A stretch of DNA of 64,000 nucleotides from Chondrosia reniformis (lineage: Eukaryota; Porifera; Demospongiae; Chondrillida; Chondrillidae), in NCBI GenBank assembly GCA_947172415.1, contig OX359197.1, forward strand, positions 1,116,001 through 1,180,000, written 5' to 3'. Below, in pieces: positions 4,161 to 27,200 of this stretch. The translations under genes and the position numbers were made by a program. Below the pieces are notes generated by a model that had not been told where the DNA came from, did no database searches, and was given only the letters and a program-made list of their open reading frames with translations. Positions within the stretch are counted from its first letter, which is position 1. The number at the start of each line of letters is the position of its first letter.

Positions 4161-4254
4161 TTATTGGCTTGCAATAACTAGTATACGTTGAAACGCCTTT
4201 GCTGAATGACTGCTTTTACATCAAGTAATTTTCGATAATCGTTCAGGCATCAAG
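4161..4254. promoter_or_regulatory. Bidirectional promoter between WDR61 and centrin
   Basis: Only 94 bases separate the proposed start codons of the minus-strand WDR61 gene and the plus-strand centrin gene, so both must be transcribed from this short stretch (plus the 5' parts of the transcripts). I see no clear TATA box. The arrangement resembles the shared head-to-head promoters common in compact animal genomes. The inference depends on the WDR61 first exon being correct. Confidence 0.6.
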
Positions 4255-5258
4255 ATGGCTACCCAGAGGCGGTTCGGAAGGAAAAGGAGGGAACTATCCG
4301 AAGAACAGAAACAGGAGATCCAGGAGGCTTTTAACCTCTTTGATACCGATAAAGATCAAGCGATTGATTATCACGAGCTTAAAGTGGCCATGCGTGCTTT
4401 AGGTTTTGAAGTTAAAAAAGCAGACGTTTTAAAGGTTTTGAGGGATTATGATAGAGATGGAAGCGGCAAAATCATATACGAGGATTTCTTAGCAGTCAGT
4501 AAGTGTTTACATGGACGTGGTTTTTGTCAAGAATGGTTTCACATTCACTGTGTGTCACCAAGCCCTGCTGCACTTAATACCAGAAACGAACCGTGGTACT
4601 GTACTGACTGTGACTACTACAGCTAGTTATTCTGGACCCCTTTTGGTCGCCAAAACCAGTCCACCCCTAGGACCACTTTTGGCAAGGTAGGACCACTTTT
4701 GGTTGCCAAAACTGGTCCGGGCGGACTGGTTTTGGCCAGGACCACTTTTCGCATGACAGTTACAACTGACTTATACCATCACTGCCAACTTTGTAGTGAC
4801 CGAATGGATTCTAGATAGAGACCCTAAGGAAGAAATTGTCAAAGCCTTTAAGCTCTTTGATGATGACAATACAGGGAAGATCAGTTTGAGGAATTTGAGA
4901 CGCGTTGCAAGGGATCTTGGAGAGAATATGTCCGAAGAGGAATTAAGAGCTATGATTGATGAATTTGACCTAGATAGTGATGGAGAGAGTAAGCTAGAGT
5001 TGTAATCCTGATATTAAAGATGTGTGTTATGGGATGTAATCCTGTTTAGGACAATGGATAAACATATGCTTATAGAAGTAGCCATTTTACATTACTTTTA
5101 GCTGATCAATGGGACAGTCCCTTTTCGATCTAATATACATACACTGTATGTAGAGGTACTGCTGAATTAGAGTTTTTATGTCTATATGTCACACATTTTC
5201 CATCCATTATGCAGTCAGTATAGAAGAATTTATGGCAATCATGACCGGTGATACATAG
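4255..5258 (+). CDS. CETN: Centrin (EF-hand centriole protein)
   Basis: Centrin/caltractin is a calmodulin-like calcium sensor of centrioles and basal bodies; centrin-2 also works in nucleotide excision repair and mRNA export. Exons 4255-4498, 4797-4988 and 5215-5258 give exactly 160 codons (159 residues). The sequence follows human centrin: [20 protein letters not shown] near the start, [21 protein letters not shown] across the first splice, then [20 protein letters not shown] and a short end in FMAIMTGDT. Four EF-hand loops are visible. Loop 1 ([12 protein letters not shown]) and loop 4 (DLDSDGEISIEE) look calcium-competent; loops 2 and 3 end in D and N instead of E, as in other centrins. 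At 159 residues it is slightly shorter than the usual 165-172, with a short N-terminal tail. Intron 1 is occupied by a transposon fragment, listed separately. Confidence 0.95.
4499..4760 (+). mobile_element. DNA-transposon fragment with half a PHD finger in centrin intron 1
   Basis: The centrin reading frame continues open past the exon 1 donor for 41 codons. These encode the second half of a PHD-type zinc finger: EWFHIHC, then a spacer, then WYCTDC, giving H-x2-C and C-x2-C pairs; the first zinc cluster is missing. After the stop (near 4626) come four close copies of a GGACCACTTTTGG-like word, some direct and some inverted, ending near 4752. This pattern of subterminal repeats is typical of one end of a non-autonomous DNA transposon. 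I cannot assign a superfamily. The intron runs to 4796. Confidence 0.55.
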
Positions 5259-5993: not shown

Positions 5994-7009
5994 TTAAATG
6001 TTACTGTAATTCAGCAGTGGTTTCTGCTCATTTGTCTCTTCAGTGCTTTCTTTGCTGTTGAGTATGCTTGCATTGTGAAGTGTTGTCACTCCTTTCAGGC
6101 AGGCCTTCTTTAGCATATAGCCAATGACCCCAATGATGACTGGAATAGCAAGTATCTTCCCTATAACAACAATATTTTCTTGTCGTGATGTTGTGTGAAT
6201 GCTGTTTGTAATGATGGTGGCTTCCAAGATGATGAAAAGCAATGTTAGAATGAAGCATGATGTTGCAAGGCATTTACAGAATCTAACGTTTTTAGGTCTG
6301 CGGCAAGAGTAATGGTGGATAGAACTGAAAATGTGGACAAAGAAAGCCACGGCAAATACTGCTACCATTAAATTAGTCAGAGTTGCAATTGGAGCCACAA
6401 ACATCCCCAGTATAATGGGTATTCCGTGAAGACAACAGAATTGTAAAGTAATGTTAATGTTCCAGAGCACTAGACTTTGAATAAAATAGCGACCCCATTG
6501 CTTCTTAAAACAGCAAATAACTTTCCCAATGTTGCAGTATAGGTTTGGTATGTCGAAGGTCACTTTGGTAGCAAGAAACACTGAAGGACCGATGTTAGCT
6601 GCAACAACATACACTAGTACACAAGTATAAAGAATATAAGAGGCATTCAAGGGCCTTTGCCACATCAACATCAAGGAATGTACATCTAAAGATAATACAA
6701 GAATGTTTACAAGCACAGAACATTCTATAATTCCCCATCAAATGCTGTAACCAACTGATCCCCTTTTCAGGGTAGTAATATTTCTATATAGGAAAGAAAG
6801 CTAGTACAGATATGGTGACTGATATGGTAATTAATGGTATGCAAATTCTTCCGATTGTTTTCAAGTATCTCAATGAAACTGATACCGGCTTAAATATCTT
6901 CTTTTTACTGCACTCATACAGGACAAAGTTTGGTCTTGAGGACAACTGAGGAGATATCTTTAGACCAAGCTGCATGTGTAAAAATGAAGAATCTCAGATA
7001 TATACTATT

Positions 7010-7200
7010 TTGTAAAAGAGCCTATAGGGGAACTAAAACCTGAAGAGAGCTTTGGATGAAGATACAGGAGTCTTTTCTTCCTTTTTTTTCCTTTCTTTCA
7101 TCTTCTCCACTGGGTCAGACAGCTATTTCTGGGAATTCCACCCTTCATCAGTGATCCTGGGAGTCTTTTTTTTATTTTGATCTTCTGATGACATTGACAT
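7010..7200 (-). mobile_element. Short interspersed element, family A
   Basis: This copy lies in intron 1 of the first 7TM-like gene. Family A is about 200 bp and recurs at least ten times in the window in both orientations. It has fixed words such as GGGAATTCCACCCTTCATCA, CTGGGTCAGACAGC and GATGAAGATACAGGAGTC, and a CT-rich middle. It has no coding capacity. It is probably a MITE or SINE; I cannot decide which without an alignment of the copies. Confidence 0.65.
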
Positions 7201-7580
7201 TTAAGGTATATAAAGTGACTCAATGGATCAAAGTAATTTTGAATACATAATTATAATCATATATATATGCAGTATGCTTTATGGCTGATAATGAAGTTCC
7301 GATAATTTCCATAAAGCACTCCAAATGAAATCAGCCAATCAGTTTACAGATTACACAATGGGGATAAACAGCAGGAAAACAAATTAAATATACATGAAAA
7401 GGCCAAACACAAGACACTCTATATCATTAAGTGGGATAGGAGTGCTCTACATGATTTGTGGCACTCGACATGTGGGTCTCATTGCATGATAAAGCACGAA
7501 GACGCAATTAAGTGCTTTATCAGCAACTCATGATCAATCCACACACCAAATACCATAAATAATGTAAAGCTCATTAGTGC

Positions 7581-7582
<2 letters not shown>

Positions 7583-7613
<31 letters not shown>
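7583..7613. repeat. (TA)n microsatellite
   Basis: Pure TA run in the intron of 7TM-like copy 1. Confidence 0.9.
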
Positions 7614-7616
<3 letters not shown>

Positions 7617-8279
7617 CACTTTAAGAGTAACATACGTACACATACATGATATTATGTATGTGTAATTTTAATTTAATATATAGTTATCCTAATTGTAAAT
7701 TCTATGAAGATTTTGCATCATAACATTTTTGAGATTGACTATGAAACATAATTTATATACTTTTATATTTTAACCATCAGCAATAATCAATGAAGCTTAT
7801 TAGACTGTAATCTGGATGATCCATATTATATACAGTATATACCAACTTACTATAGCTGTGGTTTGTTTTAGAAAAAGTTCCAGAGAATCATTGCAAGGCT
7901 TTGGAATGTGCAGTACAACCAGCGGAGAATTCCACACATAATAGTAGTGCAGCGTATATAGAGCCATCATGTTGAAGACTGCTGGTTCCACTAACAAGAA
8001 TATTGGAGTATCAACCCAAATCCATTTCTCATCTGGACATTCTGGATCATGTAGTGGAACATAATCTGTGTTATTTGGCAGTCGGACACGATACTGTACC
8101 TCTACAGAGAGTGGTACTCTCCTGTTGGGCTCGTAGAAAACATTGGTGAGGTTGTTCAGGTTGCTATGGTTACTGAAGACTGCATTGGTAAATCCTGTCA
8201 AGTCAGAAGTACATCCTTCTTCACATTTTACTAGCACAATGGAATAGAAGAAAAGATTCACTGCTAAGTAAACCAGCAT

Positions 8280-9120
8280 TTAGAGTGTATATTTCTTCTG
8301 AAAAATATTTTTAGTAATGCTGATATAGCAGAACACTAGTATATACGTATATAGCCAAACTTCATTTATATATATATAGTCATGGTGTGTTTATATATAT
8401 ATATATGTGTGGCTTTTAGTTGAAATGTGATAGCACTCAAGTAATGCATGTCATGTTATTCTAAAATCTGAAAATTTTCATTAATGAAAGAGACTTCCAA
8501 TTTAGTATAAATGGCCAATTACATACGTATAAATAACACATATTACATTAATAAGTACTTTATATAGGTCCACATACTAATTACTTTTAATGAATAATTT
8601 TATTATTTTGATATGTTCCATTAGTGATAAGCAATACACAATTAACCCGAAGCTGGTTAACGACTGGTTAATGCGAAGAACTGTTTGAAACCATGCAATA
8701 ACTACCGTATACGCAAGAAATACTATTTATGCGAAAGAATATAATCGCTATTAGGTTTGTGTTGAATACAGTGTGCAATGTATGACCTCATCCAAGAAAC
8801 ATGCATGTACAGCGCTCTTACACAACTGATTATAATTACATTGAAACTATCGATCATTGGCACATTTCTGTCCAACTGTTTCACTGTAATAGCTCGTGAT
8901 ACAATAACATGTTTTGGATGTGTGTCTGATCATGCAATTGTATAGCTCCATGCACAACTTCTGGTAATCAGATCATTCTATTCATATATTGAACCAATAC
9001 AAGAAGGCATTGTAACCTCCAAAGACTGAATAATTTTTTATCTCATCATGCAAATATACATTTAATGCACACACTAATATATGTATGTAACGATTATATA
9101 CCTACATCCCAATATTTTAA
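8280..9120. other. Spacer between 7TM-like copies 1 and 2
   Basis: AT-rich spacer containing the promoter side of copy 1 and the 3' side of copy 2. No repeat family member or coding exon was recognised. Confidence 0.5.
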
Positions 9121-11200
9121 TTATATGTTAATGTAATCCAGTAGTGGTTTCTGCTCATTCTTCTCTTCAGTGCTTTCTTTGCTGTTACTTGCATTGTGAA
9201 GTGTTGTCACTCCTTTCAGGCAGGCCCTCTTTAGCATATAGCCAATGACCCCAATGATGACTGGAATAGCAAGTATCTTCCCTATAACAACGATATTTTC
9301 TTGTCGTGATGTTGTGTGAATGCTGTTTGTAATGATTGTAGCTTCCAAGATGATGAAAAGCAATGTTAGGATGAAGCATGATGTTGCAAGGCATTCACAT
9401 AATCTAACGTTTTTAGGTCTGCAGCAAGAGTAATGGTGGATAGAACTGAAAATGTGGACAAAGAAAGCTACACTAAATATTCCAACCATTAAATTAGTCA
9501 GAGTTGCAAGTGGATCCACTAACATCGCAAGTATTATGAACATTCCATGAAGACAGCAGATTTGTAAAGTAATGTTAATGTTCCAGAGCACTAGACTTTG
9601 AATAAAATAGCGAGCCCATTTCTTCTTGAAACAGCAAATAACTTTCCCAATGTTGTAGTATAGGTTTGGTATGTCAAAGATCACTTTAGTAGCAAGAAAC
9701 ACTGAAGGACCAATGTTAGCCATGAGAATGTACACCATTACAAAGACAAGGCGAGTAAAATTATTGTTTATAGGCCTTTTCCAAAGCAATACTACAGAAT
9801 GTATATCTGCCATTATCACAAAAATGTTTACAAGTACAGAACATTCTATAATTCCCCACCAAATACTGTAACCAACTGATCCCCTTTTCAGGGTAGCAAT
9901 ATTTCTAGGAAAGAAAGCTAGTACAGATATGGTGACTGATATGGTAATCATAAATAAGCAAATTCCTCCAATTACTCTCAAGTAGCTCGATGAAATTGAT
10001 ACTGGCTGAAATTCCTCCCTATAGCTAGCACTGCACTCATACAGGACAAAATTTGGTCCGGACGATAACTGAGGAGATATATTTACTCCGATCTGTATAA
10101 TAGAATGATAGAATGAAATTTTAGTTTATTTGTTTGGCTTTTAATTGTATACATACCTAAATAATAGTCCTTTGTACTATTAAACATATTATGGTTTCTT
10201 TAATGAAATGTTTGAATTTGATTGAAAGAATTTAAATTGTTATATTCCGTATATACATCCATAGATCTTGGATTATATAGGTATGTATAAATAAAACATT
10301 AATATATGGTTAAAAGAATGTGAGATGAAACTGAGCTAGGCATAGTACGACTAGAATATAGAATTACTGCATGAGGTGTCAAATCAATGCATAATACCTA
10401 TATACGTATACGTATGAATTTGTGAATGTATTTGAAATTCAATTGTAAATCAATACATAATACCTATATACATACGTATGAATTTGTGAATGCATTTGAA
10501 ATTCAAATCAATGCATGGCATATAGATTGCCGATGTGGATAAACCTCACAATCTTGTACTATTTCGACATACACATTCTATTTGCAATACACGATGTCCC
10601 AGTTAGTTTCATATTTCATACTGAAGCTAAATAATTGATTGATGAAATGGAATGTTATGATGTTTACTCAATGTTTGGATGATTTATATACACAATTGTA
10701 TTAAAATGGCAATTTTAGAAACTGTTAATATAATAAGAAAATCAGTCCAGTGATTAAACAACATAACCTTTGTATACATAGGTACGTATACGTAGCTATA
10801 GGTTTGTGTTCTCTTTCAATAAAAATGAAAGAGTAAACATACATGCTTATATATAGGACATAGGTTTAGCTGAGTTCACAGGCGATTAATTCTGTACTAT
10901 AGATCATGCAGTAATCAACAAAATTAAAGAATATAATCAGAGTTTGGTAATAAAATTACAACAGCTATATAAGTAGTAAAGATTAAATGAGTCGAGGTTT
11001 GAAATATGCATGATGAGTTGGCATATACGTATACGTAGATACATTATTCCATCAATTATTTATATAGGATTCAATTCATCATAATTTTATCATTGTATCA
11101 AATCATTTGTTAAATCATATGTCAACTTGTTTCTTATATGTATATAAACATAATTGTTGTGTCAAGTAGTTTAAATGGCTTTACGTATACAGTACAAGTT

Positions 11201-11247
<47 letters not shown>

Positions 11248-11720
11248 GTATATATATATATATATGGTATATCATTTATATTATGGCTTACTGTAGCTGT
11301 GGTTTGTTGAAGAAAAGGTTTCAATGTATCATTACAAGGCTTTGGAATGTACAATACAACCAGTGGAGACTTCCAAGTTATATTGGCTTGTAGTGTATAT
11401 AGAGCCATCATGTTGAACAATGCTGGTTCCACTAACAAGAATATTGGAGTGTCAACCCAAATCCATTTCTCATCTGGACATTCTGGATCATGTAGTGGAA
11501 CATAATCTGTATTATTTGTCAGTCGGACACGATACTGTATCTCTACAGAGAGTGGTACTCTCCTGTTGGGCTCGTAGAAAGCATTGGTGAGGTTGTACAG
11601 GTTGCTATAGTTACTGAAGACTGCATTGGTAAATTCTGTAAAGTCAGAAGTACATCCTTCTTCACATTGTACTATCGCAATAGCGTAAAGGACAAGACTC
11701 CCTACCATGTAGACCTGCAT
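9121..11720 (-). CDS. 7TM-like family copy 2, intact
   Basis: Unrecognised membrane receptor-like protein, 466 residues in two exons: 11720-11292 (143 codons) and 10092-9121 (323 codons plus stop), joined in phase 0. The start chosen is the methionine aligned with the other copies (MQVYMVGSLVLYAIAIVQC, a signal peptide). An in-frame ATG at 11783 would add 21 residues before it. The ectodomain (about 20-180) has PECPDEKWIWVDTPIFLL, YIPKPCND and several N-x-S/T sites. Exon 2 adds about seven hydrophobic spans, beginning at ICLFMITISVTISVLAFF and ending at AIPVIIGVIGYML, and a cytoplasmic tail with EQKPLLDYINI. An N-terminal signal peptide plus seven spans is GPCR-like topology. I see no DRY, NPxxY or other class signature, so this is topology, not homology. 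The intron holds a (TA)n run right after the donor. Confidence 0.75.
11204..11266. repeat. (TA)n microsatellite beside a splice donor
   Basis: Long TA run interrupted by one ACG, beginning about 25 bases into the intron of 7TM-like copy 2. Its length is likely polymorphic. Confidence 0.9.
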
Positions 11721-12463
11721 CCTAAACATTTCACTCTCCTCAAGTACTGAAGGTATATCTTCTGATATTCTCCTACTGACCATGTAGAGAACTTACGTAT
11801 ATATATAGCATGTTTGAGTAACTATGTAACGCAAATAAAATATATAATATGTGTTTGTATTTTAAGTCACTTAGATTTTAATAAAAACAAGACATAGTAC
11901 CCAGGAGTATACTCGTTAACCAGGTTATCTTTGTATACTTTAATTGTTTATATAACAAGCTGCATAGGAATATTGATTGATTATAATATCTACGCAATAT
12001 TTGGGTAACTATATACTTTCAATTTTATAAAATGGAAATGTTATGGTATTTTATAGTAATTGTTTATAATATAGTAAAGTGAAAAGGAAATAATTATATA
12101 CACTACCAGTGACCATGCTCATATATATATGTAACACAATGCAGGCCAATTAACTCTAGACTTATTATATTATACACATGTACATTTAATCTCTTGGCTT
12201 CAAGCAATTAAATTAAATACATATTGTTTATAAACTTGGCATTCTTGATAAATATAATCCATGATCAAAATGGTGCATTTATAATACATACACACACCTA
12301 ATGCATGTATTTTTGGTAGTCAAACTGCATGACTGTGCTCTCTAAGTATACATATATAAGTAAGATGGAATGAAAAATGGCCTCCCTACACGTATAATAT
12401 TAATTCAATTGCTGTGATTGTATATTTCTATTCGAATATGTTAATGTAATCCAGCAGTGGCTT
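11721..12463. other. Duplicated spacer in the 7TM-like array
   Basis: No gene. Bases 11880-12440 are clearly related to 15345-15840: both have the CCAGGAGTATACTCGTTAAC word followed by the same order of short blocks. The spacer was therefore copied together with a gene during array growth. Confidence 0.65.
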
Positions 12464-14373
12464 TCACTGATTCTTCTCTTCAGTGCTTTCTTTGCTGTTG
12501 AGTATGCTTGCATTGTGAAGTGTTGTCACTCCTTTCAGACAGGCCCTCTTTAGAATATAGCCAATGACCCCAATGATGACTGGAATAGCTATAATCATAA
12601 GTAAGCAAATTCCTCTCAAGTAGCTCGATGAAATTGATACTGGCTGAAATTCCTCCCTATAGCTAGCACTGCACTCATATATACAGGACAAAATTTGGTC
12701 CGGAAGATAACTGAGGAGATATATTTACTCCGATTTGTATAATAAAATGAAATTTTAGTTTATTTGTTTAATTGGCTTTTAATTGTATGTATACATACCT
12801 ATATAATAGTCCTTCGTACTATTAAAAATATTATGTTTTCTTTAGTTCTATTATTATGTAATGAAATTTTTAAATTTGATTGGAAGAATTTAAATTGTCA
12901 TATACATCCATATGTCTTTGATTATATAGGTACATATAAATAAAATATTGATTTATGTTTAAAAGAATGTGAGATGAAACTGAGGTAGTATGACTAGTAT
13001 ATAGAATTACTGCATGAGGTGTCAAATCAATGCGTATTACCTATATACGCATACGTATGAATTTGTGAATGCATTTGAAATTCAAATCAATGCATGGCAT
13101 ATAGATTGCCGATGTGGATAAACCTCACAATCTTGTACTATTTCGACATACGCATTCTATTTGCAATACACGATGTCCCAGTTATGTATAGTTTCATATT
13201 TCATACTGAAGCTAAATATTGATTGATGAAATGGAATGTTATGATGTTTACTCAATGTTTGGATGATTTATATACACATAATTGTATTAAAATGGCAATT
13301 TTAGAAACTATTAATATAATAAGAAAATCAATCCAGTGATTATTATATAATAAACAACATAACCTTTGTATAGGTAGGTATATGCAGGTTTGTGCTCTCT
13401 TCCAATAAAAAGTATTGTACGTGAAAGAGCATGCTTATATTTAGGATGTAGGTTTAGCTGAGTTCACAGGTGATTAACTCTATATTATGGATCAGTAATC
13501 AACAATATTAAAGAATTTAATCAGCAATTATGTGGTCATAAAATTACGACAGCTATATAAGTAGTAAATTAAAGATTAAATGAGTTGAGGTTTGAAACAT
13601 GCATATATATGCATGATGAGTTGGCATATACGTATAGATACATTATTCCATCAATTAGTTACGTATATAGGATTCAATTCATTTTTATTGTATCAAATCA
13701 TTTGTTAAATCATATGTCAACTAGTTTCTTATATGTATACAGTATATACATAATTGTTGTGTCAAGTAGTTTAAATGGCTTTATACAGTACAAGTTACAA
13801 TAATTATATATATATATATGTATGTATGTATATTATTTAATTATATTATTTATTTATTTATATATTTATTTATATTAGATTACCTCAGTGTATTGTAACT
13901 TGCACTGTATATATATGGTATATCATTTATATTATGGCTTACTGTAGCTGTATGTGGTTTGTTGAAGAAAAGGTTTCAATGTATCATTACAAGGCTTTGG
14001 AATGTACAATACAACCAGTGGAGACTTCCAAGTTATATTGGCTTGTAGTGTATAGAGAGCCATCATGTTGAAGACTGCCAGATCCATTAACAGGAATATT
14101 GGAGTATCAACCCAAATCCATTTCTCATCTGGACATTCTGGATCATCTAGTGGAAGTATTATTTGTCAGTCAGACACGATACTGTACCTCTACAAAGAGT
14201 GGTACTCTCTCATTGGGATATCGATCTGTAGAAAGCATTGGTAAGGTTGTAAAGGTGCTATGGTTACTGAAGACTGCTTGTGTAAATTCTGTAAAGTCAG
14301 AAGAACATCCTTCTTCACATTGTACTATTGCAATAGCGTAAAGGACAAGACTCCCTACCATGTAGACCTGCAT
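12464..14373 (-). pseudogene. 7TM-like family copy 3, pseudogene
   Basis: Exon 1 spans 14373-13943 (an upstream in-frame ATG lies at 14436). It has lost about ten bases near 14155-14160, which breaks the frame after VEVQYRV, and has four extra bases near its donor. Exon 2 (12734-12464) keeps only its ends: the first membrane span is fused directly to the last, so about 670 bp covering spans 1-7 are deleted. The intron acceptor reads AA where copy 2 has AG (12735-12738 region). It therefore has several independent lesions. Its intron (12735-13942) is closely related to that of copy 2 (10093-11291), showing that copies 2 and 3 came from one duplication. Confidence 0.85.
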
Positions 14374-15862
14374 CCTAAACATTTCACTCTCCTCAAGTAC
14401 TGAAGGTATATCTTCTGATATTCCCCTACTGACCATGTAGAGAACTTATGTATATATAGCATGTTTGAGTAACAATGTAACGCAAACAAAATATATATGT
14501 GTGTGTATTTTAAGTCACTTAGATTTTAATAAAAACATTACAGGTACAACATGATCTGTCTACTGAATCTTGATTCAATTTTTTATTCAGATTTAAATTG
14601 AAACTTCCTACGTATACTTCCTTTTGAAATGTTAAAAGACTTTAGATTCAATTCATCAGGTATTATATTTGGCTTATATTACTATAAATATCTGGTCTAT
14701 TTTGCTACAATAAGTTTGTCCATTCTTGTTTTCGATAGTGGCTCGAACCACTGGTTCTAGCACAGTCTGATCTAAATTAACTAATACCTTAAAGTATGTA
14801 ATTCAACGTTAACTGCACTCATGCAGGACAAACTTTGAGCTGGAAGATAACTGAGGAGATATGTTCATACTCTGAGCTGTATAGACTGTAGAATGACATT
14901 AAGTTGAATTTTGTGTATATCTATACACATTGAAAGTATATGGTAGCACTCTATAAGTAGGGATGGTTGAAATAAAATATATACATTTCAGTTATTCACA
15001 CACTGCATATTTAGAATTAAAACTTGATCTATGTACACCTAGATTGAAATAAATTAGAAGTATAAATCAGTTTACTAGAGTTGAATGCTCTACATATTCT
15101 ATTTCAATTTTGCCATGTTATTAATTGAAACATGTTCGTTTAACTATCAATTTAACCTACAAGTTAGTAATATTATGGAAATGAAGAACCAAAAGTGCTA
15201 ATTTTTCCATTTTGAAATATTTGTGTTGGACTATACATGTAAGGATTACTTTTAACCATATATGGAACTGTATAATTTTTATATAAAGACTTATACGTAG
15301 TAGTACTATTGTTTAACAAGAACTACATACTGATAATGAGAACTAAAAGGCATAGAACCCAGGAGTATACTCGTTAACCAGTTTATCTTAAATGTTTATA
15401 TAAGAAGCTGCATAGGAATACTCAATATTTGGGTAACTATATACTTTCAATTTTATAAAATGAAAATGTTATGGCATTTTATAGAAATTGTTTATAATTA
15501 AAGTGAAAAAGAAATATATACACTACCAGTGACCATACTCATATATGTAACACAATGCAGGCCACTTAACTCTGGACTTATTATACTATATACATGTACA
15601 TTTAATCTCTTGGCTTGTAAGCAATTAAATTAAATACACATTGTTTATAAACTTGGTCTTCTTTATAAATATAACTCAATGGTGCATTTATAATACATAC
15701 ACACACCTAATGCGGTAGTCAAACTGCATGACTCTGCTCTCTAAGTATACGTATATAAGTAAGATGGAATGAAAAATGGCCTCCCTACACGTATAATATT
15801 CATTCAATTGCTGTGATTATATATTTCTATTCTAATATGTTAATGTAATCCAGCAGTGGCTT
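14374..15862. other. Spacer with a solo exon fragment
   Basis: Mostly unique AT-rich sequence. Bases 14811-14880 (minus strand) are a lone remnant of the 7TM-like exon 2 start, reading NISPQLSSSSKFVLHEC in translation. This points to a sixth, almost erased copy. Bases 15345-15840 repeat 11880-12440. Confidence 0.6.
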
Positions 15863-17824
15863 TCACTGATTCTTCTCTTCAGTGCTTTCTTTGCTGTTGA
15901 GTATGCTTGCATTGTGAAGTGTTGTCACTCCTTTCAGACAGGCCCTCTTTAGAATATAGCCAATGACACCAATGATGACTGGAATAGCAAGTATCTTCCC
16001 TATAACAACGATATTTTCTTGTCGTGATGTTGTGTGAATGCTGTTTGTAATGATGGTAGCTTCCAAGATGATGAAAAGCAATGTTAGGATGAAGCATGAT
16101 GTTGCAAGGCATTTACAGAATCTAACTTTTTTAGGTCTGCAGCAAGAGTAATGGTGGATAGAACTGAAAATGTGGACAAAGAAAGCTACACTAAATATTC
16201 CAACCATTAAATTAGTCAGAGTTGCAAGTGGAGCAACAAAAACCCCAAGTATTATAAATATTCCATGAAGACAACAGATTTGTAAAGTAATGTTAATGTT
16301 CCAGAGCATTATACTTTGAATAAAATAGCGAGCCCATTTCTTCTTGAAACAGCAAATAACTTTCCCAATGTTATAGTATAGATTTGGTATGTCAAAGGTC
16401 ACTTTAGTAGCAAGAAACACTGAAGGACCAATGTTAGCTGCGAAAACAGACACTATTGTAATAATAAAGCCAGCAAAAAATTCATTTAAAGGCCTTTGCC
16501 AAAGCAATACTGCAGCATACACATCCGCCATTGCCACAACAATGTTTAGAAGCACAGAACATTCTATAATTCCCCACCAAATGCTGTAACCAACTGATCC
16601 CCTTTTCAGGGTAGCAATATTTCTAGGAAAGAAAGCTAGTACAGATATGGTGACTGATATGATAATCATAAATAAGCAAATTCCTCCCATTAATCTCAAA
16701 TGGCTCAATAAAACTGATACCGGCTTAAATATCTTCTTTTTACTGCACTCATACAGGACAAAGTTAGGTCTTGAGGACAACTGAGGAGATATCTTTAGAC
16801 CAAGCTGTGTATATAGAAGTGAAATATAAAGGTATCATATTGTGCATAAATATAGTGTGTATATATGTATATTGCTGCAAAATTTAATACTTTGTCGTGA
16901 TCCATTTTAATAATGAAACGATCAATCAATCAGTCAATTCATATATATGTATATGCAGAGTACTGTTTATATAATATATACAGTAGTTAAATTATGTAAA
17001 ATGCATAAGAGTACCAGTATATATAATCTACGTATGTAAGATGTTAATCATGAAACATTAGTAAAATGTAGATAGATAGTCTACAGGAGATAGAGTGATT
17101 GATAAAGAGTGTTTTAAAGGGGAATGCCAAAGAAGAAGACCACAGAACAGACCCACATGTATGCAGATGGATATATATATAGACAACTTGACTATTATAA
17201 TTCATTTCATATAGCTATTAACGTAGTTGTGATGGCAGAACGGCTTCCTGAAAAGGAGATAAATTCCCTGTTGGATTGATTGAATAATTGGTTGATGCAC
17301 AGCGTTCAATTATATATAGACAGTATACAATGTCATTGACACATTGAAACTATATACAGATAAGTTAAACATGCATCTCTATAATATGGCCAACTTACTA
17401 TAGCTGTGGTTTGCCCTAGAAAAGGTACCAGTGAGTCATTGCAAGGCTTTGGAATGTACAGTACAACCAGTGGAGATTTCCAAACTAAATTGTAGTGCAG
17501 TGTATATAGAGCCATCATGTTGAAGAAGCCTGGATCCATTAACAAGAATATCGGAGAATCAACCCAAATCCATTTCTCATCTGGACATTCTGGATCATAT
17601 AGTAGAGTGTACTCTGTATTATTTATCAGTCGGACACGATACTGTACCTCTACAGAGAGTGGTACTCTCCTGTTGGGCTCGTAGAAAGCATTGGTGAGGT
17701 TATATAGGTTGCTATGGTTACTGAAGACTGCATTGGAAAATTCCGTAAAGTCAGAAGTACATCCTTCTTCACATTTTACTATCACAGTAGAAAAAAGAAG
17801 AGTTGCTGCTATGTAGATCTGCAT
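15863..17824 (-). CDS. 7TM-like family copy 4, intact but tail-less
   Basis: Same family and two-exon structure: exon 1 is 17824-17399 (142 codons) and exon 2 is 16804-15863 (313 codons plus stop), joined in phase 0; 455 residues. The start follows the conserved signal peptide MQIYIAATLLFSTVIVKC; an in-frame ATG at 17848 would add eight residues. The ectodomain has PECPDEKWIWVDSPIFLL and N-glycosylation sites, followed by about seven membrane spans. The protein stops after STEEKNQ, where copies 1, 2 and 5 continue for about ten more residues including the dileucine motif EQKPLL. The stop is a TGA in place of a glutamine codon and is shared with pseudogene copy 3, so it predates their separation. 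Function unknown. Confidence 0.72.
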
Positions 17825-18273
17825 AGCACAGATTTCTATCTTCTCCAAACTTGTAATAGTTTTATTTAGCCTCTTTGGAATTATAATACTGACAACTTCG
17901 TAATATATACATTGTTGGAAAATTGCTTTTATACCAGCATTTTAGTTGATTCAGAAATATGATTAAGTAATGAAGTGTGTTATTGTAAGAACGTATTAAT
18001 CTGAAAATTTAAGAGACGGTTATAAATTCACCCATTTACTTTAGTGTTATTCTATATATATAGGGTATGTATTTATAGGTTTGACTAATTAGTTAAATAT
18101 TACTTTGATGTATTCTATTAATGATAAGCATAATATGTCTACCATGTATGGATGCAGCGCGCATCAGTCATATATAGCAAAGCAATACTCATGTACTGAT
18201 TATGATATAATGTACCAAATGAACAAGGATTGGGCAATCATAGGGTATTTTTGCGTCATAGCCTTTGTAAACA
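17825..18273. promoter_or_regulatory. Divergent spacer, 7TM-like copy 4 and ATG13
   Basis: About 450 bases separate the minus-strand copy 4 start from the plus-strand ATG13 start, so both promoters should lie here. No specific element was recognised. Confidence 0.45.
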
Positions 18274-21200
18274 ATGTCAGGAGAACGGCGTGAATTCGAA
18301 AAGTACCTTAAATTTTTCGTTTTAAAAGTAAGTAGTGTATATTTGTTTACTTTTATAGGACGATTAACCGTGAATCCTCTCTGTGTAGTCTCTACAAGTA
18401 ATAGTACAGAGTAGAAAAGGAGAGAAATTGAGAACGTCGTCAAGAAGTGCTTCAGTTGATTGGGTTAGTGTGCGTCTACGCTTAATTAACATGGAAATGG
18501 ACTATAATAAGGCAATTAACGTTATAAATGTGCTTTATAATTTTGTTTGAAAACAATCATTGCCTATATCCACCAACTACAACCTTGATATGAAGATATA
18601 GTCCTATATCCACCAACTACAACCTTTATATGAAGATATAGTCCTATATCCACCAACTACAACCTTTATATGAAGATATAGTCCTATATCCACCAACTAC
18701 AACCTTTATATGAAGATATAGTCCTATATCCACCAACTACAACCTTTATATGAAGATATAGTCCTATATCCACCAACTACAACCTTTATATGAAGATATA
18801 GTCCTATATCCACCAACTACAACCTTTATATGAAGATATAGTCCTATATCCACCAACTACAACCTTTCGTTACGTTCAGGATGTTGTTTCACTTGAACTC
18901 TAAATCAATCCACTCTAGTTTAGCTTAGATCTTCCTGACGATAAGTCTGTTTTGAGTGAACTGAAAAAAGCAAGCCAAAGTCGTATTCCCCAGCACAGAG
19001 CTCCAATTTGTGTTGAAATCTCTTTGAAGTCCGAGGTACATGTACATACATTATACATGCATACATATATACCTATAGACTTTTTACAAAGTATGCATAG
19101 CATGTAGGAATATGGTGTATTAGATTTTTAATATTTTAAGTTAAAAAATTTAAGATCCGAACCCCGATCATCACTAGACCCTGGATTGTACCCCACTCAC
19201 TCATGTCTCTTGAGGAGTGCAGTGAACTATTGGTAGCAAAGAGAAGACTCTGTTTCTCATTAAGTAAACCTTGGTTCTGTCAAACTCATTGTATATGAGA
19301 TACCATTTACATGTATTTCTAAATACACCCCGTTGCTGGGGTAACCAAGGCAAATTATATTCCACAACTGTTGTATAACTATAATAAGAGGCACTTTGGC
19401 CTCTTATTATAGTTATACAGTGCGATATCCCACCGATAAATCAGTTAATGCCGAAAAGCCTAGGGGCGGAATGTATAACTATACAAATACATATGTACAA
19501 AGTTTGCCAATACATGTCAATTTAGTGTTAACTCTATATTAACCATGTTTAAATTCTAATAGTTCATTTCTGTCTTTATAGAATGACTCCATAATTGTGG
19601 AATTATGGACCATTTCGATTGATTCCAGGTAATTATATATACGTATAATATTTACACAGTTCTATGTACTTGAAAGTTTCTGAATGTAAATGCATTTTAA
19701 ATTTAGTTTTGACTTTCTTAAAGATGTTTTGTCCTCAGCAAGGATAGTAATTAGATTTCAAAGTGCTCAGGTATGGTATGTATTACCGGTTAATGACTGC
19801 AATGATTCTCATTTTCATGATACTGTTGTCATTTCTTTACATACGCTCTTTTACTAATTTCACAGTACAACGGATCCTTCAGCTAAGGCCACCTCTGTTG
19901 TTTATCCAAGAATGACTTTAATGATCAAATCTCTACTGACTGTCAGTAGATTACTTCCTGCCTACAAGTTGTCACGGCAACCAGATGAAGAGTGGACTAT
20001 ATGTTACAGGTATGTAGAAGTGACTTCAGCTAGGCAGTGCATTTTCTCACGTTTGTGATCATGATCATGGTTTAATCTGAAATTTAATAAAATTTGTCAT
20101 TTAAAGATGGCTGCCATGTTTTTATCTACTTTGCTGATAAAATTGGAACTTGAAGAGTTGTATATTATATATTGAAATGATTATTTGTTGTGTTCATAAT
20201 GGTTCTTGAAATAGTTGAGCATCAGCAACATGAGTATTTTCAGAAATTGAAGGTTTTGTCCCAAGGATCTTCATCAGCAATTTTAATGAATTTTGTCTGA
20301 TCGCTAATGAAAGATGGCCGACCTTAAAGCATTTCTTTGTATATAATTGGTTAATACTTGCTCAGCCATAATCATGAGAATCAATTTAGAAACTTAGCTA
20401 TCATTTGTATGCTGCCATATTCACAATAACTGATATTAATGTGTATATATTACATTATTATTATTATTTTTATTATTATTATTATCATAAAATTTAAATT
20501 TACAATTATTATTATTATTATTATTAATTTATTGTACATACTACATAATGCATCCACTATATATGAAAATGCTATAATCAATTTATTTGACTATATACCA
20601 AAAATTTTGTAGAGTGTTCACTGGTTTTGATTCCAAAGCTGAGAAAGTGGATCTTGGTCCCAATCCAACCCAGGTAGATGTATCTTATGGAATCACTCCT
20701 TTTGGAAAATTACAACTAGAAGTAACATACAGAAGGAGTGTGGATCTATTTGATGGGTAAAACCCTGTACAGTGTTACTGTAATTGTATTTAGTCACATT
20801 TGTTTGTGAGCATTTTGCCTAATATCCTCTCAATGCAAAGCCTCTGTCTTACCTATATCTTTCATCCATATTTGCATTTAAATTTCAGTTCTGAAATTTA
20901 ACTGATGCTATAACTACGTATTACTGCAAAGTTAAATGACGTGTAAAGATGATTTGAAATCTCGATATATGTATATGATTGAACAAGTATCTTTTGAAAG
21001 GATCATCTTTCAACTTTTAGAGTGTTTAAAGATGCAGTTTTGTTGTCTCTCTTAAACTTCTGACATTCAAGAGAGACGCAGTTGAAGAAATCCTAATTCT
21101 ATTAGCTATATTCCTCCTTCTCTTTAAGCTCATGGCTCATATATAAATGATTCATATTTTCTGCAATATATTTTGTGAATCTTTATTTCAAACACTATAG

Positions 21201-24200
21201 TGAAAATATGTTCACACAATTCTAATATATCAAAAATGGTGATGCTTAAGGTATTGGTTGCTGATTAATACAAATAATTAAATGTTAATGTAATCCAGTA
21301 GTGGTTTCTGCTCATTCTTCTCTTCAGTGCTTTCTTTGCTGTTGAGTATGCTTGCATTGTGAAGTGTTGTCACTCCTTTCAGGCAGGCCCTCTTTAGAAT
21401 ATAGCCAATGACCCCAATGATGACTGGAATAGCAAGTATCTTCCCTATAACAACGATATTTTCTTGTCGTGATGTTGTGTGAATGCTGTTTGTAATGATG
21501 GTAGCTTCCAAGATGATGAAAAGCAATGTTAGGATGAAGCATGATGTTGCAAGGCATTCACATAATCTAACTTTTTTAGGTCTGCAGCAAGAGTAATGGT
21601 GGATAGAACTGAAAATATGGACAAAGAAAGCTGTACTAAATATTCCAACCATTAAATTAATCAGAGTTGCCAGTGGATCCACTAACATCGCAAGTATTAT
21701 GAATATTCCATGAAGACAGCAGATTTGTAAAGTAATGTTAATGTTCCAGAGCACTAGACTTTGAATAAAATAGCGAGCCCATTTCTTCTTGAAACAGCAA
21801 ATAACTTTCCCAATGTTGTAGTATAGGTTTGGTATGTCAAAGGTCACTTTAGTAGCAAGAAACACTGAAGGACCAATGTTAGCCATGAGAATGTACACCA
21901 TTCCAAAGACAATACAAGTAAAATTATTGTTTATAGGCCTTTTCCAAAGCAATACTACAGAATGTATATCTGCCATTGCCACAACAATGTTTAGAAGCAC
22001 AGAACATTCTATAATTCCCCACCAAACGCTGTAACCAACCGATCCCCTTTTCAGGATAGCAATATTTCTAGGAAAGAAAGCTAGTACAGATATGGTCACT
22101 GAAATGCTAATCATAAATAAGCAGATGTCTCCAATTACTCTCAAGTATCTTGTTGAAATATGGACTGGCCAAATGGGGCCCTTTTCCCCACATTCATGTA
22201 AGACAAAGTCTGGACTTCTTGACAATTGAGGAGAAATATTTACACCAAGCTGTAGAAAGTGAAATAGGAAATTTAATGTACATATGATTTTATAGTGTAG
22301 CGTGTTTATAATCATTATTGAATGTTAATTCTAGAAGTTGGTTATAAGTTATAATGTACCTAACTATCAATATATCTGTAGGGACAAATGAATGTTATAC
22401 AAACAATTTGTAGATCACTAGATCGAAATTTAAAATGTAACTTGTGTCTATAGAGCCAGACTAGATTTTGGTTTTTATGGTCGAGGGTTTACTGTAAAAA
22501 TAATCACTGGGAGATATTATACCTGACCAACCAAGTCACTGAAGTATGATCTTGTTGAGAGACTAAAGTCCTATTAAATGGCAACCATGATAGTGTATAC
22601 AAACGTATATGCAGTTTGTCCTATAGTAGTATCTGTTGTCACTATGAGAACATTCATGCATCTTCACTTACTGTTGTCGTTATATGCTGAAGGAACAGTT
22701 CTATTGAATGGTTACAGGGCTTAGGTATGTATAATACCACTACTGGTGATTTCCAAATCAGACGGTAGTGCAATGTGTAGAGAGTCATCATGTTGAAGAC
22801 TGCTGGATTCACTAACAAGAATATCGGAGTATCAACCCAAATCCACTTCTCATCTGGACATTCTGGATTATATAGTGGAACATAATCTGTATTATTTGCC
22901 AGTCGGACACGATACTGTACCTCTACAGAGAGTGGTTCTCTCTCATTGGGTTTGTAGAAAGCATTGGTGAGGTTGTACAGGTTGCTATGGTTACTGAAGA
23001 CTGCATTGGCAAATTCTATAAAATCTGAAGTACAAACTTCTTCACCATTTGCTAGCACAATTGAATGGAGGACAAGACTCAGTGCTACGTAGACCCACAT
23101 CCTAAGTGTATCTACGTATACTTCGGTTTTCTAAAAAACTGAATTTTGTATCGTCTTAAATATATGCCATTATATTACTTTTATCTCTAAAAGGATATGT
23201 CTAATGTATTTTGTGTCCATTGGAAATGTATTAAACTGAAAAGTAGTAATGGTAGAGGTGGTGATAGTGGTGGAAGTGTTAGGAGTAGGAGGTGGAGGAG
23301 GTGGTGGTAGGAGTATGAGTAGTATATAGTAATACACTTAGTATTTAAGGAATTTCTTTGAATTTATTTATGTCTCATGCACTCTATAGGCCAAATCAGG
23401 TAGGTGCAGCCAATACATTTACTAGACAGTACAGCTCCCAGTACGGTAGCTTAGCAAGGTACGTAAGTATAACGAATGAGGTAGTGCATACGTACATACA
23501 CTTGTGTGATATTGCAATGACTTGTATGGATTCTTTTTCTGAAGCTTATTAAGTGATGCCAATTAGAGGCTACATATGTAGCTCATTTATTCTGTATATT
23601 AAGTATTCGTGCATGGTGGAACTGAAATTATAGCCATGTTTTACTTGCTTAAAATCTGTTCTTCTTCATGCATACAATACAGTCATTACACCATTTTCAT
23701 ACATGCTACGCTTACTCTGTAAAAGCCTATATAAACCTAGAGAAAGATTTGGATGAAGATACAGGAGTCTTTTTTTTCTTTTCTTTTCTTTCTTTTTTCC
23801 TTCTTCACTCCGCTTGTCCATGTCATGTCATGCTGCAGAAAGCAATTAAGATTTGTAGCTCAATTATGTGATAGGAAGAACATGAAAGCAATTAAGATCC
23901 CATACAAATAAGTGTTGGTGTTTGAATGTCTTCCTTTATAGTGGTCAGATGAGTTTAAGTAATGCAGGACAAGTTCCATTTTCAGGGCAAGGAATGCCGA
24001 ATGATGTAAGTTTCACTTGTGATTCCTTTAGTATGTATGCCTTTGACATCATTTAATAACTAGATGTCAATTTGTAGCTCTCTCTTTTCGCCTTAACAGG
24101 TAGACTTTCAATCACTAAAAGTTCAGCAGTTTTCTCGTGTTCTGGAGTACGATAGGCAGTCATCTCTTCTACCATCCCTCACTCCTGATGTACGTGTGTG

Positions 24201-27200
24201 ATGTATATATTTATATGCTATAGGTGATAGAAATATTTACTGGGAAAGATTATTTGTCTCATCTCATATATAACTTATGAATTTTATGTATATTTCCTGT
24301 TTTTTCTCTTCATGATTACTTATGGTTTGATTATCACTTCGATTATTGTTGTGTTACAATAATGACATAGGCATCGGAACTGGTGGGGCTCCCCCTCCCA
24401 ATCCCAAGTTTTACAGAAGGGGGGCCAAGTATACCTCTGCCTCCCCACCCCATCCCCACCTCTTTTACACCTCATAGGCCTGGTACCCTAATGATTTGTG
24501 AACTGGAGAACCAACAAAGGGTGACAATGTTCCAAAGTAACAGCTGTACTCCTTTTTGTTTGATTTGAAAACACCTAGGCCATCATAATGAACTGCCTAT
24601 ATACTACCCAAATCCGCGAAAGGTTTGGAAGCCATTTAATAAGTTGTGCAATACATTGCATCAAGAAAGATTTATGACTGCCCCACCTCCCCAGTTTTCA
24701 AAAGTGTTTGAATATCTATGAATGATATTCATTATCCTGCACATTTTGTGATTTTATTCCAGTTGCAGCCATATGAAACCCAATCATGCAGAAACTTGAC
24801 TGGTATCATGTGATGTGATGTTAATACTGCAGTGTATTAATATGTATGGTGTCCTGATTGCTAAATGCCTTGTATACAGTAAATGTCACAAAATTATAGG
24901 CTACCTACAGTGTTCCAAACTAAATACCAGTTAATCTGTTGTGGATTTTGTTGAGCGTCCCCTTTGAAATGATGAATCATAGGTTGTGTATACTAGACTA
25001 AATTTACAGTGATTACTATAAGGATAATTGCTAAATTCTTTAAATAGCCGAGACTTGTTGCTTTTCTTCAACAAACTTGTTTTTATGAATTTCAGATGGC
25101 AAGCATTTCAGCTGAAGATCAAAGTGAATCTCTAATACCAGCTAATGACCAGCAGCGTCCCCAAACTGAGGACTTTGTAGTACTGGATAATGCCTTGGTA
25201 TGTAAGGTGCACACTATCTACTTTATATATAAAAAACATGGCTGCCCTATTCAATATATTATCAGTTAATCAACAACAACAGGATTTTCGGTTGCATTCG
25301 AGTGTTTGCAGTCATTTATGTACACTTTTAAATGCCAAAAACATGTTTGGATGCTCTACAATGTTTGCAAAGCGCTAATATATACACAGTGGACTCTGAT
25401 TTTCCAACACCTCTGTTCCCCAAACTACTGGATAAATCAGGTGCCAGATAAATAAGTATCTTCAGGAATATCACTAACAGTGGTGTGATTTGTGAATCAT
25501 TTCCAACTATGTACATACATATGTTGAATAATTTATATTGAACCATCCTCATTATGGATTCTGTGATGGCAACCCTTGTGGAGGGGATGAAATCATGTGA
25601 GATGATTTCCATTAGTTAGTTTTCCATCAGACCATCCTGAGCTATGCAGCCTAAGAGTGAAATACTGTGGATGTTGTAGAATGTTAATTAATTCTTTCAA
25701 TCTTAAACTTGTTGAAATTTTTTACTTTTCTTCTAAGAAGCCAAATTGCAAGCCAGCAGAGGTACACTTGTGCTTATTGGTATATTCTGTTTTACAGAAG
25801 CCTGTATTTGCACCAGATTCCCAGCCCAGTGATGACCTGGGCCAGTTCTTCCAGGAGTGCAAGAATCCACCAAATCTAGATATGTTCTCTGGTCCGACTG
25901 CTTTGGATATCAATTCTGCTCTAGTGAGTCTAAACAACCATAACGAAGTTATTATATAAATATTATCATAATAATTATACACATTTATGTATATGATTTA
26001 TTGATCATCAGCAACATAAATTCAAAAAAGTGAGCTGAATAATTAATGAAGTTAAAAAATGAATTACGTAGTTAGTAAATGAATAATTAATGAATATCAC
26101 TTCAAGTTTATGTACAGTAAGATTGCAACTTGAAGCAATATGCTGTATCAAGTCTGTTGATTTTAGTAAATATACGTATATCTCTGGTCAAAGTGTGAAG
26201 TATGTACGTATATGCACATATATAAGTATCCTACGTTATTGAGACTCAACAACAATTGTATTTAAATAAAAATGAACGTTTTGACCCAAAGGTCTTCATC
26301 AGCATAAAATTTATTTATTTTATTTATTAATTTATCCTGATGAAGACCTCTAGGTCGAAACGTTTATTGTTGTTTAAATACAATTGTTGTTGAGTCTCAA
26401 TAAATTAGTTTACTTATTATGGACATAACAAGAATCCCATATCACTTCATGCACATACATATGTGTAGATAGCTAGTGTAAGGATAGACTCTTACTGGAA
26501 ACTTACCTTTGAAATATGTTTATAGTACAAGTTCAGTAGTGACTGACATATGACAAGATTGCCACACCTTGCATATTCATCATTGTAATAGACAGTAGGA
26601 ATGTGCCAAGATCCCACCTGAGACTTGTGTCTCAGACTTTTAATATATTTATGGTCCTCCTATTTCCTAATTGAAGTGTATTTAGCCATATTGTCATAGA
26701 TGCCTTTAATTCCTTTTACTTACTTTTGAATTACTTATAAAACTTCAACTATATGGCAAAATCACTTAATTGAAAAGATGTATACATCTGTACATGCGTA
26801 GATGGTTTCCGAGCCTAAATACATATTATATACGTATGTAAGTATTTATTTTAAGTATTATAAAGGTGATAATAGAATAAGGATTCCTTATAACTGTGTC
26901 GAACTTATCTTTGGGATGGTACATCCTTCGACTTTTGAGCGTTTAAAAACGCAGTTGGTTTTCGTTTCTTAGTCAAACGTTTTGACCCTGGGGGTCTTCA
27001 GTCACTGAGGAATACCCCCAGGGTCGAAACGTTTGACGAAGAAACGAAAACCAACTGCGTTTTTAAACGCTCAAAAGTCGAAGGATGTACCATCCCAAAG
27101 ATATTATAAAAGTGGCCAAAAGAACATTGTGCAATAAAGTGGCCATTTTGTCATGTTTTTCATTAAAGTATAGGATGGATGATGTAATAACTGTAGCAGC

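Follow-up and report, generated by a model that had tools for sequence, protein, structure and literature searches.

We find that the window, a stretch of 64,000 bases on chromosome 9 of Chondrosia reniformis (kidney sponge; positions 1,116,001-1,180,000; genome of 117.38 Mb in 15 sequences), probably holds a young, still-rearranging tandem cluster inside a large sponge family of seven-span receptor-like proteins. A first-pass annotation had described five two-exon copies and a solo fragment at 5994-23100, and we confirmed these with their frames, donors and acceptors on the minus strand. The array that it described is real, but it forms one part of a large dispersed family that numbers at least 53 loci across the genome. 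Furthermore, the two-exon plan holds for the five copies, but only two of them, B and E, are intact, whereas A and C are disabled and D is truncated.

Layout of the tandem array

The copies, their exons and the solo fragment are located in the window as follows.

5994-8279, minus strand: copy A, whole
7851..8279, minus strand: copy A exon 1, signal peptide and ectodomain, 143 codons, open, donor GTAAGT
5994..6969, minus strand: copy A exon 2, seven-span exon, disabled: 4 bases inserted compared to B, D and E, nonsense codon TGA in place of TGG
9121-11720, minus strand: copy B, whole
11292..11720, minus strand: copy B exon 1, 143 codons
9121..10092, minus strand: copy B exon 2, 323 codons and stop, intact, tail EQKPLLDYINI
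12436-14378, minus strand: copy C, whole
13953..14378, minus strand: copy C exon 1, broken frame
12436..12752, minus strand: copy C exon 2 remnant, both ends adjoining, residues ~61-283 gone
~14815-14882 (ends approximate), minus strand: solo fragment, first 20-odd codons of a sixth exon 2, with acceptor
15863-17824, minus strand: copy D, whole
17399..17824, minus strand: copy D exon 1, 142 codons
15863..16804, minus strand: copy D exon 2, 313 codons and stop, open, last nine tail residues absent
21278-23100, minus strand: copy E, whole
22672..23100, minus strand: copy E exon 1, 143 codons
21278..22249, minus strand: copy E exon 2, 323 codons and stop, intact, between opposite-strand ATG13-like exons

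Damage or truncation affects three of the five copies (A, C and D). In copy D, the stop of exon 2 directly follows EEKNQ, and KPLLDYINI is absent. Copies B and E are the only ones in the window that are intact in both exons and have GT and AG splice sites, which makes them ready targets for expression and topology tests.

The ectodomain exon

In copies A, B, D and E, exon 1 comprises 142-143 codons with a signal-peptide-like start, four to five N-glycosylation sequons and a GTAAG donor at its end. Copies A, B and D each share 72-73% identity with E in this exon. The ectodomain motifs that had been proposed as fixed, PECPDEKWIWVD and IPKPC, are indeed invariant in these four open exon 1 copies. 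Across 14 ectodomain rows of the family, the invariant positions are C23, N40, F48, N69 and W88.

Beyond the signal peptide, hydropathy of 13 gene models detects a weak hydrophobic segment inside exon 1 of B, E and model C10b; in B and E this segment sits just past a W-I-W motif. The residue propensities give the ectodomain a mixed alpha/beta look that is not clearly all-beta, which we treat as weak evidence on its fold.

The span exon and its topology

Exon 2 is open over its full length in three of the five window copies, and its identity to E is 90% in B and 83% in D. The hydropathy profiles of B, D and E each contain the signal segment and seven strong exon 2 segments, in agreement with the approximately seven hydrophobic segments that were initially noted. 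We also checked for fewer than six spans, and each open exon 2 in the window has seven strong ones. When the same approach is applied to the 13 models (threshold 1.35), seven exon 2 segments are found in seven models (B, D, E, C14a, C14b, C14c and C10b), eight in five models (C5a, C5b, C1, C5c and C10a) and six in model C4. The extra segment is located between TM3 and TM4 and may be either a loop helix or a further span. In the latter case, the tail would be outside.

Basic residues are unevenly distributed between the two sides of the predicted bundle. In B, D and E, there are 3 after TM1, 5-6 or more after TM3, 3-4 after TM5 and 5-6 in the tail, compared to 0 after TM4 and 1 after TM6 in the opposite loops. 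The loop after TM2, which would be an outer loop if the N terminus is outside, carries 1-3 basic residues and is a counter-point. Overall, the more basic character of the loops after TM1, TM3 and TM5 and of the tail favours an N-outside, C-inside arrangement. The signal peptide, the sequons and the basic residues in the would-be inner loops together suggest that the N terminus is outside. The first-pass terms 'GPCR-like' and 'receptor-like' describe predicted topology only.

In the nine of 13 exon 2 rows that are retained when near-duplicates are excluded, W77, P140, P192, F204 and P275 (copy E numbering) are invariant, and Y73 and C152 (same numbering) are kept in eight of the nine. The mean entropy in these rows is lowest in TM7 and ECL2 and highest in TM3. 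TM7 contains an invariant proline, after which most rows have G-[YW]-x-[LV]-[KR].

In several lineages, the last residues of the tail are YINI, YEVI, YEEI or YEDIP. A Y-x-x-hydrophobic form occurs in 9 of 14 tails compared to ~3.7 expected from shuffles, where the rows are not independent and kinship is uncorrected. Four tails from the second branch of the family (described below) are short and, as judged by eye, do not have the terminal Y-x-x-hydrophobic form. This form resembles adaptor-sorting or SH2-docking motifs and is a weak, suggestive candidate for a sorting motif in the tails of some lineages.

A dispersed family with two branches

Six-frame searches of the genome revealed exon 2 frames akin to those of the array, with open stretches of 321-373 codons, on chromosomes 1, 4, 5, 10 and 14, and exon 1 queries independently matched upstream of these dispersed frames. 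We assembled 13 two-exon models, whose exon ends were set by hand at GT/AG sites. The models have a common order and plan and a phase-0 junction throughout; all 13 acceptors are AG and, with copy A exon 1 counted in, all 14 donors are GT. The donors of models C10a and C10b (GTCAGT and GTGATT) are weaker than those of the other models, and the exon 1 frame of model C1 has no ATG. In a trio on chromosome 10 at 5.94 Mb, the ectodomain frame lies upstream of the span frame in all three copies. In total, this first branch comprises 18 loci: copies A to E, seven single loci, three loci on chromosome 14 and three on chromosome 10.

In a tree of 19 exon 2 products, the three window copies group together with a support of 100/100. 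Their clade joins members from chromosomes 1, 4, 5 and 10 with moderate support only (84/84). As support is weak at the deeper nodes and long branches come together, we make no inference on the root of this tree.

A second branch was reached from both exons. With a chromosome 14 exon 2 query, we found weak matches on chromosomes 3 and 8 (E 0.005-0.4), and a chromosome 5 ectodomain query matched seven ectodomain frames on chromosome 3 (E 0.006-0.009). Searching the genome with a chromosome 3 exon 2 member yielded 41 rows that merged to 35 loci. Among these, 26 cover at least 900 bases of exon 2, and two of the 26 contain internal stops. The corresponding ectodomain query yielded 39 rows that merged to 37 loci. 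An exon 1 is located at most 5 kb upstream on the same strand for 33 of the 35 exon 2 loci; two exon 2 loci have none, and four exon 1 loci are unpaired.

The two branches can be linked by profile comparison. Between branches, hhalign gave 97.1% for the span exon (E 5e-11, 195/370 columns) and 96.1% for the ectodomain exon (E 3e-9, 84/149 columns). The chromosome 10 trio, entered as a single sequence, reached 82.9% over 89 columns. As a control, an unrelated seven-span HlyIII protein gave 0.1% and 0.5%, in a comparison that covers the span exon only and uses a single sequence, which is weaker than an alignment. Furthermore, the donor and acceptor of one second-branch gene match in phase to the first branch, and the defining plan, an ectodomain exon followed by a phase-0 junction and a single span exon, was found there as well. 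The 18 and 35 loci of the two branches add up to the total of at least 53, which is a lower bound and counts fragments and pseudogenes. The two-exon plan provides a simple signature for finding the family in other sponges.

Sequence exchange and selection in the window copies

The last spans of the window copies had been described as nearly invariant. This is true of the residues; however, the silent sites hardly vary either. In the 3' half of exon 2, dS is 0.04-0.09 among B, D and E, compared to 0.5-2.2 in the first 32 codons; for B versus E, the two values are 0.04 and 2.2. Fisher tests of this silent-difference contrast on rounded counts gave p 2e-12 for B-E, 5e-4 for B-D and 5e-7 for D-E. 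As the late spans are near-identical also at silent sites, recent homogenisation of the DNA explains much of their frozen look.

The identity along exon 2 is a mosaic. It is high at TM1, low near ECL1 and TM3 whenever A or D is one of the pair, and higher again past TM3, with a dip around TM4 and ECL2. This pattern fits recent exchange between copies that would have left some segments divergent. It is in the ectodomain part and near ECL1 and TM3 that the window copies differ most.

Purifying selection probably also acts on the 3' half of exon 2, where dN/dS is 0.35-0.38 (B, D and E). Whole-exon dN/dS ranges from 0.29 to 0.86 in all 20 pairwise comparisons made. Values above 1 are found in short regions: the signal peptide (four of six pairs), the N-terminal half of exon 1 in A-B, TM1 with ICL1 in B-D, TM2 in D-E, and ECL1 with TM3 in B-D and D-E. 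We do not claim positive selection, as the one contrast that was tested, B-D at ECL1 and TM3, is not significant (Fisher p 0.58).

These estimates also bear on whether the array in the window consists largely of decaying pseudogenes with no present function, as might be thought from the disabled copies A and C, the truncated copy D and the solo fragment. However, B and E are intact and retain their splice sites, and the point estimates of dN/dS between them are 0.35 (exon 1) and 0.38 (exon 2). We consider a mostly decaying array to be very unlikely.

Another possibility is that the proteins have no receptor role and that their seven spans, under a secreted-type cap, form channels, transporters or structural proteins of the membrane. 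A seven-span layout by itself does not define a receptor, and five of the 13 models have eight segments. Three observations argue against such a role, none of them decisive: span exons come paired with a signal-peptide ectodomain exon (at 33 of 35 second-branch loci), the family has undergone a large tandem and dispersed expansion, and divergence among the window copies peaks in the ectodomain part, ECL1 and TM3. We thus regard a non-receptor role as quite improbable.

Searches for named families, folds and outside relatives

To compare the family to named families, we scanned 18 exon 2 products (13, one and four) and 19 exon 1 products (14, three and two partial) against Pfam-A with hmmscan. 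At the maximum E-value of 10, where HMMER filters drop most matches above ~0.1, no GPCR, GOST or GOLD model was listed, nor was a GPS or GAIN model listed for either exon. The best E-value was 0.018 (TOM13), and all printed scores were under the curated cut-off. Searches of PDB sequences with profiles or single sequences of both exons gave no convincing match (best E 0.067), and the profile searches returned no GPCR. DRY, NPxxY and GPS are motifs of GPCR classes; by eye, we saw none of them in the family. The initial impression that no class signature is visible is borne out by the lack of a clear match in Pfam or PDB, and the suggestion of a previously undescribed family is supported for these two libraries only.

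These searches inform us about two kinds of known seven-span proteins. The first would be a standard GPCR class (Rhodopsin, Adhesion, Glutamate or cAMP-like) from which the family branched off and then diverged so far that the class signature has worn away. Such an origin could account for the approximately seven spans, the suggested N-outside orientation and the invariant TM7 proline with the G-[YW]-x-[LV]-[KR] that follows it in most rows. However, GPCR models are missing from the Pfam-A results, GPCRs are missing from the PDB profile searches and the class motifs were not seen, so that we find this origin decidedly unlikely. In sponges, the Rhodopsin and Adhesion GPCRs covered by an Amphimedon survey likewise have seven spans and lineage-specific expansions (PMC4302439). 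The family described here differs from them in that it matches none of 7tm_1, 7tm_2 and 7tm_3 and that a GPS motif was not seen.

The second kind comprises seven-span proteins with a GOLD domain, either GOST proteins (GPR107/108, TMEM87, TMEM145 and GPR180) or the recently named Hi-GOLD, of which our family could be diverged members that act in trafficking or as receptors. The order of parts is the same, with an extracellular domain directly ahead of the seven spans, and Hi-GOLD has been reported to have sponge homologues (PMC12716839). Nevertheless, no scanned member matches a GOST or GOLD model in Pfam, from which Hi-GOLD itself may be absent, and the mixed alpha/beta propensities of the ectodomain, though weak evidence, differ from an all-beta domain. 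The number of loci is also far higher than the three PF06814 genes that the Amphimedon survey reports (PMC4302439). Membership in either group, where Hi-GOLD is compared by description only, appears unlikely to us, although less so than descent from a standard GPCR class.

Structure prediction with AlphaFold2 used alignments of the window sequences alone, leaving out the dispersed paralogues. The mean pLDDT was 31.5 for exon 1 (four window copies) and 37.9 for exon 2 (three near-identical window copies), both below usable confidence. The exon 2 model contains eight helical stretches, which would fit seven spans and a short helix; given its mean pLDDT, the model carries no weight.

Searches that reach close relatives only found no relative in prokaryote genome contigs (with the copy E exon 2 as query) or in viral contigs (with the three-copy exon 2 alignment as query), as expected for an animal family. 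We noticed no description of the family in the open-licence receptor literature, which is weak evidence of absence. Databases may already contain members of the family among the uncharacterised proteins from other sponges. This would change the novelty of the sequences but not the result that the searched libraries gave no named family for them.

Proposed function

Based on the sequence features above, we think it fairly likely that the genes encode a hitherto uncatalogued family of cell-surface, seven-span receptor-like proteins for an extracellular cue, whose ligand, coupling and fold are putative. The product of exon 1 would supply the signal peptide and an ectodomain that carries conserved cysteines as well as sequons, and the product of exon 2 the last piece of the ectodomain, approximately seven spans as predicted by hydropathy, and a cytosolic tail. 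The ectodomain, together with the outer loops, would bind the cue, and the bundle of spans would convey it to partners on the cytosolic side. In those lineages where the tail carries the Y-x-x-hydrophobic form, it would suit uptake following activation. Coupling to G proteins is our best guess for the output, and a tentative one.

Sponges have no nerves, yet food, symbionts and chemicals must be sensed. We might speculate that the approximately fifty loci represent a separate receptor class, unrelated in sequence to the known GPCR classes, that senses chemical or microbial cues in a nerveless animal; we regard this as possible but rather doubtful. Since surveys start from known 7TM profiles, such a class would so far have escaped them. 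Insect-type gustatory and odorant receptors are similar in that they form large seven-span families in tandem arrays. They have no signal peptide and their N terminus is inside, whereas the sponge family has a signal-peptide exon ahead of the spans.

The Amphimedon receptor survey was built on Pfam models (PMC4302439) and a second sponge survey likewise finds receptors by Pfam domains (PMC8242945). As the family has no Pfam model, it would be absent from such lists. For other receptor families, the response to microbial signals has been studied in sponges: GPCR genes are reported to respond in Aplysina aerophoba (PMC6208332), and in Halichondria panicea no GPCR genes are reported among the LPS-responsive genes (PMC8242945). 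Both reports concern families other than the one presented here.

Neighbouring genes

Lastly, we inspected the genes around the array. On the plus strand, ATG13-like exons at 18271-20757 and ~25606-25956 flank copy E, and this copy thus appears to be nested in an intron of the ATG13-like gene. The Pfam ATG13 match, for 19858-20055, is just above the cut-off; the other ATG13-like pieces, including the exon at 25.6-25.96 kb, were assigned by eye and have no Pfam match where scanned. The first part of this gene includes a tandem repeat at 18563-18867 with a unit of ~40 bases and copies that are >99% identical.

At lower coordinates than the array, a set of short repeats at 1775-2935 has one frame that reads as a repeated 13-letter peptide. 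At 4210-4626 on the plus strand, a single open frame encodes EF hands (strong Pfam match) and, directly after them, the latter half of a PHD-finger-like stretch, which is just under the Pfam cut-off.

On chromosome 14, an HlyIII/adiponectin-receptor-like seven-span gene (L052:7351-8460, Pfam HlyIII) adjoins the cluster of the family. In the profile comparison, this gene is unrelated to the family (0.1% and 0.5%).

At higher coordinates than the array, the plus strand of the window encodes a strong IgGFc-binding domain at 32544-34100, followed by frames with Calx-beta-like repeats as judged by eye. Several long plus-strand frames at 36076-61162 resemble tandem BTB-domain genes; the single frame scanned in that run, 36076-37521, is BTB by Pfam.
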